A stretch of DNA of 64,000 nt from Psychromonas sp. 14N.309.X.WAT.B.A12 (GTDB lineage: Bacteria > Pseudomonadota > Gammaproteobacteria > Enterobacterales > Psychromonadaceae): positions 62,001-126,000 of the forward strand of contig NZ_JAPNXS010000007.1 of NCBI RefSeq assembly GCF_030397575.1, in the 5' to 3' direction. The notes under the pieces are model-generated. The model did no database searches, was not told the DNA's origin, and saw only the letters and a program-made list of their open reading frames with translations. Below, one piece after another: positions 31,624-31,813 of this stretch. Each line of letters opens with the position of its first letter. The stretch's first letter is position 1. The translations under genes were made by a program, and so were the position numbers.

Positions 31624-31673
31624 AATAACCCTGAGCCATTAAGAGAAAAGGAGTGTTAATTTTATTCCCCAAT

Positions 31674-31738
31674 AAAAAAATCACACGCTAAAAGAGCCTA
31701 ACTTGTTAATTATTAAAGTTAAGATTTTTAAAGTGTGA
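31674..31738 (-). terminator. putative attenuator hairpin in the pyrG leader
   Basis: Minus strand: TCACAC (31733-31738) pairs with GTGTGA (31681-31686), with inner pairing of AAAA/TTTT and TTAACTT/AAGTTAG, followed by seven T (31674-31680). It sits between the predicted pyrG promoter and the start codon, 50 bases before pyrG, so it would cut off pyrG transcription rather than end an upstream gene. The upstream ABC operon already has its own strong terminator at about 32010. Confidence 0.7.
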
Positions 31739-31784
31739 CCGCTTTATCAAAATGGAAGAAAATTGAACATTTAGATGGGACAAC

Positions 31785-31813
31785 AGTATAACAAGTACCG
31801 CTATCCTCGACAA
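31785..31813 (-). promoter_or_regulatory. predicted pyrG promoter
   Basis: Minus strand: TTGTCG (31808-31813), 17 bases, TATACT (31785-31790). Transcription would begin in a run of C (about 31777-31779). The leader would be about 155 bases. A short frame ATG TTC AAT TTT CTT CCA TTT TGA starts a few bases into the leader, inside a pyrimidine-rich stretch. Confidence 0.6.

Follow-up and report, generated by a model that had tools for sequence, protein, structure and literature searches.

Among the systems closest to the one described here, start positions at pyrC and pyrD are counted from the −10 hexamer, pyrBI has a leader peptide, and Meng et al. reportedly described in 2004, for pyrG of Bacillus subtilis, CTP-sensitive reiterative transcription combined with attenuation. 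Published accounts describe, at pyrC and pyrD, a C start under a low GTP/CTP ratio and a hairpin that then keeps ribosomes off (PMC7818426). They describe slippage and attenuation at B. subtilis pyrG, and slippage with a leader terminator at Streptococcus agalactiae pyrG, for which a similar mechanism was suggested (PMC4448216, PMC4403831), as well as UTP-responsive reiterative transcription at Escherichia coli pyrBI, carAB, codBA, and upp, with three T forming the carAB start (PMC6245113). Further accounts report 3′ ends in the pyrG leader of Pseudomonas aeruginosa, termed potential regulation (PMC8297930), and early termination with involvement of Rho at E. coli pyrG, where a rho mutation raises a pyrG fusion more than 2-fold (PMC7815308). 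The reports on B. subtilis, S. agalactiae, P. aeruginosa, and E. coli thus indicate that early termination at pyrG recurs. Beyond the last two reports, the accessible literature (most subscription papers lie outside this search) describes neither a C-run start nor an intrinsic leader hairpin for gammaproteobacterial pyrG, and it gives no mechanism of pyrG control in gammaproteobacteria.

We analyzed a window (i.e. the whole stretch of DNA under study) of 64,000 nucleotides from the marine bacterium Psychromonas sp. 14N.309.X.WAT.B.A12, in which pyrG lies downstream of an ABC-transporter operon and is followed by eno, the order pyrG-eno being common to the window and E. coli. The encoded PyrG protein has 99% identity to that of Psychromonas sp. 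B3M02, and 83–99% identity to those of the other genus members in which a match was obtained (22 in number). The features of the locus, in window coordinates, are as follows:

28565..29863, minus strand: gene that we take, from its protein sequence, to be eno (enolase), next after pyrG and on the same strand
29986..31623, minus strand: pyrG, CTP synthase (PF06418 match, E = 1.9e-126)
31629..31633, minus strand: Shine-Dalgarno (SD) region CAGGG (AGGG in 20/20 Psychromonas leaders; other families often have CTCAGGTTC)
31674..31680, minus strand: T7 tract behind the outer stem (from the sequence)
31681..31738, minus strand: long outer stem TCACAC...GTGTGA, clade-specific (folding)
31688..31696, minus strand: degenerate T-tract CTCTTTTAG behind the inner hairpin (a run of 5–7 T in 14/19 relatives)
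31697..31723, minus strand: inner hairpin CTTAACTT/AAGTTAGG, matching in position the relatives' CATCACTTA/TAAG-TGATG hairpin (folding)
31747..31770, minus strand: short frame MFNFLPF, not conserved and rejected as a leader peptide (comparison of relatives)
31757..31779, minus strand: leader nucleotides 1–23, conserved in the genus (major-base frequency)
31774..31779, minus strand: presumed start region C6 C7 C8 A9 T10 C11 (CCCATC), exactly 5 nt past the −10 (sequence comparison)
31785..31790, minus strand: −10 hexamer TATACT, preceded by TG, i.e. an extended −10 (consensus scan and conservation)
31808..31813, minus strand: −35 hexamer TTGTCG of the pyrG promoter (consensus scan; TTGT in 20/20 long Psychromonas leaders)
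31994..32024, minus strand: terminator-like site behind the upstream ABC-transporter operon, 13 pairs and then a T-run (simple terminator scan)

The pyrG promoter, TTGTCG-17-TATACT at 31813-31785 (minus strand), comes from a consensus scan that on its own does not outperform chance (3 promoter-like sites vs a mean of 5.3 in shuffles), and we consider it credible because it is conserved. Counted from 31779, where the CCC begins, up to the base preceding the ATG (31623), the leader measures 156 nt, and its first 23 nt have a mean major-base frequency of 0.92, compared with 0.41 for columns 24–200, or 0.65 when gap-majority columns are left out. An earlier note on this DNA had placed the promoter ahead of a leader of about 155 bases that opens in a C-run; the promoter lies where that note put it and is conserved, and the CCC, 5 nt after the −10, resembles the C-run starts at which start-site switching is known to occur. 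What the note had merely glimpsed is the fixed distance of C6C7C8(G/A)9 from the −10, which is the strongest conserved feature we find.

In our view, the C-run most likely reports CTP at initiation, and a leader hairpin in Psychromonas would end part of the transcripts. We give about an even chance to the complete proposal, i.e. a two-layer control of pyrG (perhaps also of eno) in which a CTP-sensing C-run start is followed, in Psychromonas, by a leader hairpin acting as a partial terminator. In the first layer, which would operate in the majority of the families examined within the order, RNA polymerase would start at C6–C8 when CTP is plentiful and at the position-9 base, mostly a purine, when CTP is scarce, while a run of 3–5 C would permit C slippage at high CTP and leave fewer productive pyrG transcripts. 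In the second layer, the nascent RNA of Psychromonas would fold the inner hairpin with the T-rich tract behind it and, in the window's clade, also an outer stem with its T7, making a partial intrinsic terminator ∼40–65 nt before the ribosome site. We infer that CTP would set start choice or slippage, that the hairpin would terminate transcription, that both would lower pyrG at high CTP, and that the two layers may be linked.

The start geometry was compared in an order-level set of 90 leaders; pyrG was matched in 95 genomes, of which 90 supplied these leaders. The arrangement −10/N5/CCC(G/A)T is found in 70 of the 90 leaders and in 19 of 26 families, and CCCTT replaces the motif in 4 Moritella-type leaders, bringing the total to 74. 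By comparison, CCC(G/A)T occurs in none of the 90 leaders at each of the spacings 4, 6, 8, 10, 11, and 12 from the −10, and in 2, 6, 4, 1, and 3 leaders at spacings 1, 2, 7, 9, and 13, respectively; the 15 and 20 leaders counted at spacings 0 and 3 all have it at the same CCC that has a −10 at 5. In the 74 motif leaders the C-run is 3–5 bases long (3 being required by the search rule), and it is followed by G in 50 leaders, by A in 20, and by T in 4. For example, pyrG of one E. coli strain reads TATACT-GCTTT-CCCGTCC. The remaining 16 leaders lack the start motif under the rule that admits CCCTT, and they include 2 short leaders from the window's genus (L022 and L023) with TCCATC at that place, as well as L024, with no clear form at the start. 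Outside the order, pyrG was matched in 112 of 115 genomes (2 of them in-order) and the 28 best-identity leaders were taken; with L182 left out, CCC(G/A) stands at the same spacing in 11 of 27, as judged by a less strict −10 rule that had no separate control.

As a yardstick we read the E. coli pyrC promoter, TATCCT-TTGTGT-CCGG, i.e. −10/N6/C7 C8 G9. Like E. coli and Salmonella pyrC and pyrD, pyrG has C7, C8, and a purine at position 9 after the −10, and belongs to a pathway that ends in CTP; unlike them, it has an extra C at position 6 and, in Psychromonas, a terminator-like hairpin thereafter. In the window genome, inspection of the regions upstream of pyrC and pyrD revealed no clear C7C8G9 start. 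With pyrBI, carAB, codBA, and upp, pyrG shares a run of at least 3 end-product bases at the start, but the base is C instead of T, and there is no leader peptide as in pyrBI. The CCCATC at 31774..31779 probably represents CTP-sensing start sites, working via start choice and/or C slippage.

Downstream of the start, the window leader folds strongly: positions 31640-31779 reach −29.7 kcal/mol (z −4.5, with 0/200 shuffles as good), and the full leader has a z of −3.02 (1/300 shuffles). The stem TCACAC/GTGTGA and the T7 that were claimed earlier are found at 31738-31681 and 31680-31674, respectively. Together they score +1.3 on a d'Aubenton-type terminator scale, and 0/100 shuffles reach this value; by this score, they form the best terminator-like site of the window leader. 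A simple terminator scan restricted to loops of 3–8 did not list them. With regard to conservation, the outer stem is confined to the window's clade, whereas the inner hairpin (31723-31697) is common to the 20 long leaders of the genus.

Specifically, 20 of the 23 Psychromonas members have a leader filled by a terminator-like hairpin with a T-rich tract, and leader length in these 20 varies from 134 to 205 nt. A 38-nt segment placed by its AAG motif forms a hairpin in all 20 long leaders (−4.1 to −10.0 kcal/mol), most commonly CAUCACUUA...UAAG-bulge-UGAUG followed by a T-rich tract, with the AA of that motif left unpaired in L017 and L020. In the window species and its sister the hairpin has diverged to CUUAACUU/AAGUUAGG, with the T7 lying behind their outer stem. 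The T fraction behind the hairpin is 0.66 vs 0.41 elsewhere in the 20 leaders. One of the 20 aligned leaders (L010) has ∼48 extra nt behind the hairpin; this insert is bounded by the inverted repeat ACCAAT...ATTGGT and resembles a small mobile repeat.

The earlier note had proposed that relatives be compared for conservation and covariation of the hairpin. Conservation is evident from the above, while covariation finds support in some analyses and not in others. When only the 5′ part was shuffled (because the sequences were folded singly and canonical pairs are expected anyway), the mean z was −1.96, with 10/20 leaders at P < 0.05 and a Fisher P of 5e-7 over 13 representatives that were hand-picked to remove near-duplicates and are still related, i.e. 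not independent. Swapping arms between species also weakens the hairpin, from −5.87 kcal/mol with own arms to −4.18 kcal/mol with swapped arms. These shuffle and swap tests suggest that the hairpin arms co-evolve. By contrast, pair counts in the 10 best-aligned hairpins give a weak signal (51/500 shuffles as good), and RNAalifold returned no pairs on a plain whole-leader alignment, which we attribute to misaligned 5′ arms. A covariance model matched 6 leaders outside its building set (E 0.0005–0.023), with no match in L002 and L003 (the window species and its sister), in L020, or in the window leader. Across the genus, whole-leader folding is not stronger than that of 150-nt pieces upstream of the promoter, which may contain upstream terminators (mean z −1.43 vs −1.31; 7/20 leaders and 7/20 control pieces fall below 5%).

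The hairpin could instead be a structured 5′ UTR that does not terminate transcription and serves mRNA protection, translation tuning, or a response to temperature change, with the C-run alone being regulatory; we see this as possible, if unlikely. Terminator scores, which are above 0 in 3/20 leaders and negative in 17/20, speak for it. The top score falls on the inner hairpin in 10 leaders and on the outer stem in 4; the other 6 have their best site at a different place. It is equaled by more than 5/100 shuffles in 12/20 leaders and by 5/100 or fewer in 8/20. In addition, the AU-rich stems gain stability at 10 °C (−8.6 to −16.9 kcal/mol for the inner hairpins), and in the model of L002 the SD is partly paired (0.38 unpaired). 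Psychromonas is known for growth in the cold, and stability at 10 °C may be relevant if the bacteria examined here grow under such conditions. What a structured UTR leaves unexplained is the tract that follows: the 9 nt behind the hairpin have a T fraction of 0.56–0.78 across 20/20 leaders, with a run of at least 4 T in 19/20.

A wider proposal, which we find improbable, takes the C-run for a general CTP sensor of gammaproteobacterial pyrG: slippage at high CTP would add a poly(C) tail that, together with a C-rich and G-poor leader, would load Rho and cause early termination, and in Psychromonas, where C-richness would have been lost, the intrinsic hairpin would replace Rho. Poly(C) is a strong Rho ligand. 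The 54 order-level motif leaders from outside Psychromonas have a median length of 59 nt (42–184) and, with start and SD excluded, a C/G ratio of 1.82 vs 0.88 upstream, and C outnumbers G in 18 of their 19 families. The ratio is 1.12 in Psychromonas (20 leaders). Slippage with Rho loading is consistent with these ratios, and with the rho-mutant result for E. coli (PMC7815308). Premature 3′ ends or termination in the leader or early gene, as reported for P. aeruginosa and E. coli, would be a feature shared with Psychromonas, but the E. coli pyrG leader is 50 nt long and C-rich, and no strong hairpin before a T-run is seen in it.

There is a slim chance that pyrG is attenuated as in B. subtilis, where a 5′ tail added by slippage would pair with the terminator arm and form an antiterminator. 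The two have in common the gene, a homopolymer at the presumed start, and a terminator-like hairpin in the leader. However, the bases at the presumed start are CCC rather than GGG, both in the window and in 74/90 leaders, so that slippage would rise with CTP and not with its lack. No conserved G-tract, i.e. no tract complementary to a tail, is seen in the hairpin arms by eye on the alignment of 20 Psychromonas leaders, including their 5′ arm; the GGGG after the T7 of L002 is not conserved, and the only invariant GGG is that of the SD, which would give 3 bp. On this reading by eye, a Bacillus-like antiterminator is not supported in Psychromonas.

Translational control as at pyrC, in which C-start transcripts alone would fold their 5′ end over the ribosome site, is likewise quite improbable, even with the same C7, C8, and position-9 geometry. 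We modeled SD openness for C7 and position-9 starts in 128 leaders, a set weighted to Vibrio and Photobacterium. It was reached from 160 leaders, of which 25 have no candidate start (including L104 and L124, which are cut by the contig end), by dropping 7 of the 135 candidate starts as misassigned (L040, L094, L111, L148, L156, L157, and L165); of these, L111 and L148 do carry the motif, elsewhere than at the script's choice. Mean openness is 0.545 vs 0.544 for the two starts in all 128 leaders, and 0.485 vs 0.486 in the 20 from Psychromonas, where the modeled probability of the 5′ CC pairing with the SD averages 0.005. The two starts differ by <0.05 in 121/128 leaders. A C start hides the SD by at least 0.1 in 2 of the 128 and opens it in 1. 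In the first of these, L170, a gammaproteobacterium outside the order, the arrangement is pyrC-like, with CCCGUUU paired to AAACGGG at the ribosome site (SD unpaired 0.15 for the C7 start vs 0.45 for the purine start), while masking is slight in L051 (0.18 vs 0.29). L181 differs in that a C start leaves its SD more open, the 5′ CCCGUC being paired to a GACGGG located further upstream. In these models, translational masking by a C start is an exception, which leaves initiation effects, i.e. start choice and slippage, as the general reading.

For Psychromonas, a pyrC-like masking of the ribosome site is not supported, given the nearly equal modeled openness for both starts. The likeness to pyrC and pyrD suggested in the earlier note is therefore retained for the C7C8-purine-9 start geometry but not for the 5′ hairpin that masks the SD, which is absent from the Psychromonas pyrG models and rare elsewhere. 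Pairing of the 5′ CAUC with GAUG in the 3′ arm of the hairpin was also rejected, since the 3′ arm becomes GAAG or GAGU in relatives with the 5′ end unchanged, and we see no conserved pairing partner for the 5′ end of the leader. Separately, in four leaders from outside the order (L163, L174, L162, and L166), the presumed 5′ part recurs, by eye, as its reverse complement before pyrG, e.g. CCCAGCA/TGCTGGG and GATGCCAG/CTGGCATC.

It is very unlikely that the terminated leader serves as a small RNA, with the 5′ 23 nt as its seed and the hairpin plus U-tract as its 3′ end. Those 23 nt are indeed the most conserved part of the leader and are largely unpaired in the minimum-energy models for several relatives (e.g. 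L012, L014, L015, and L018), but a promoter or start-site function could explain the conservation, and no Rfam family matched: the window has no match above the gathering score, and a further search gave a best hit of 15.2 bits to a microRNA model (E 4.9).

Nor is the hairpin at all likely to be the terminator of the upstream operon, an idea we find scarcely credible. The upstream genes are on the same strand as pyrG wherever identified (14/20 long leaders). Yet the hairpin lies downstream of the conserved pyrG promoter, and it is kept behind 2 different identified genes (an ABC transporter in 2 leaders and mazG in 12, with no identification in 6); we therefore reject this candidate and take the hairpin as part of the pyrG leader, placed so as to act on pyrG as the earlier note had held. 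That note had also given the upstream operon a terminator of its own, and a terminator-like site is found at 32024-31994 by the simple scan, where chance alone would give 1.1 such sites over the 2 kb scanned.

Last, we place practically no credence in pyrBI-type attenuation, in which translation of MFNFLPF would couple UTP/CTP-dependent pausing to the terminator: an ATG is found at leader position 10 in 19/20 long leaders, but it begins 9 nt after the first C and thus leaves no room for a ribosome site, it is ACG in L013, and the frame varies from 2 to 35 codons among relatives, its third codon being a stop in L016, L017, L018, and L020 (frames MS, ML, or MF), so that neither the pyrimidine-rich frame nor the pyrBI likeness of the earlier note is upheld.

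Other pyrG upstream regions have features of their own. Ruminobacter, Succinimonas, and kin (L094, L095, L096, L102, and L127) show, by eye in the last 110 nt before pyrG, hairpins followed by T6–T9 ∼20–45 nt before the gene; these have no CCC start and are independent attenuator candidates. Among other families with long leaders, L058, L062, and L066 have a common stem AAGGTAAGCC...TTTGGCGTT, and in L054 and L064 early leader bases pair with a stretch near a T-run. In many Vibrio and Photobacterium rows of L099–L154, and in L041, the −10 and start of pyrG are seen by eye to lie within an inverted repeat (CTTCTGG...CCAGAAG, or TCTGG...CCAGA), and a CRP-like TGTGATAGATTTCACG is located just upstream. 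Similarly, an element TTGATTTnnnnCAA recurs by eye upstream of the pyrG promoter in L074 (E. coli), L030, L031, L034, L098, and many Vibrio rows, and resembles an FNR site.

Under the two-layer proposal, "attenuator" is a plausible name for the Psychromonas leader, with the sensor located at the start site rather than in a peptide. The fixed CCC-purine presumed start, present in 19 of 26 families and also in E. coli, is directly testable in a laboratory strain, and the Psychromonas hairpin would show a lineage adding or exchanging a termination device behind the same sensor.
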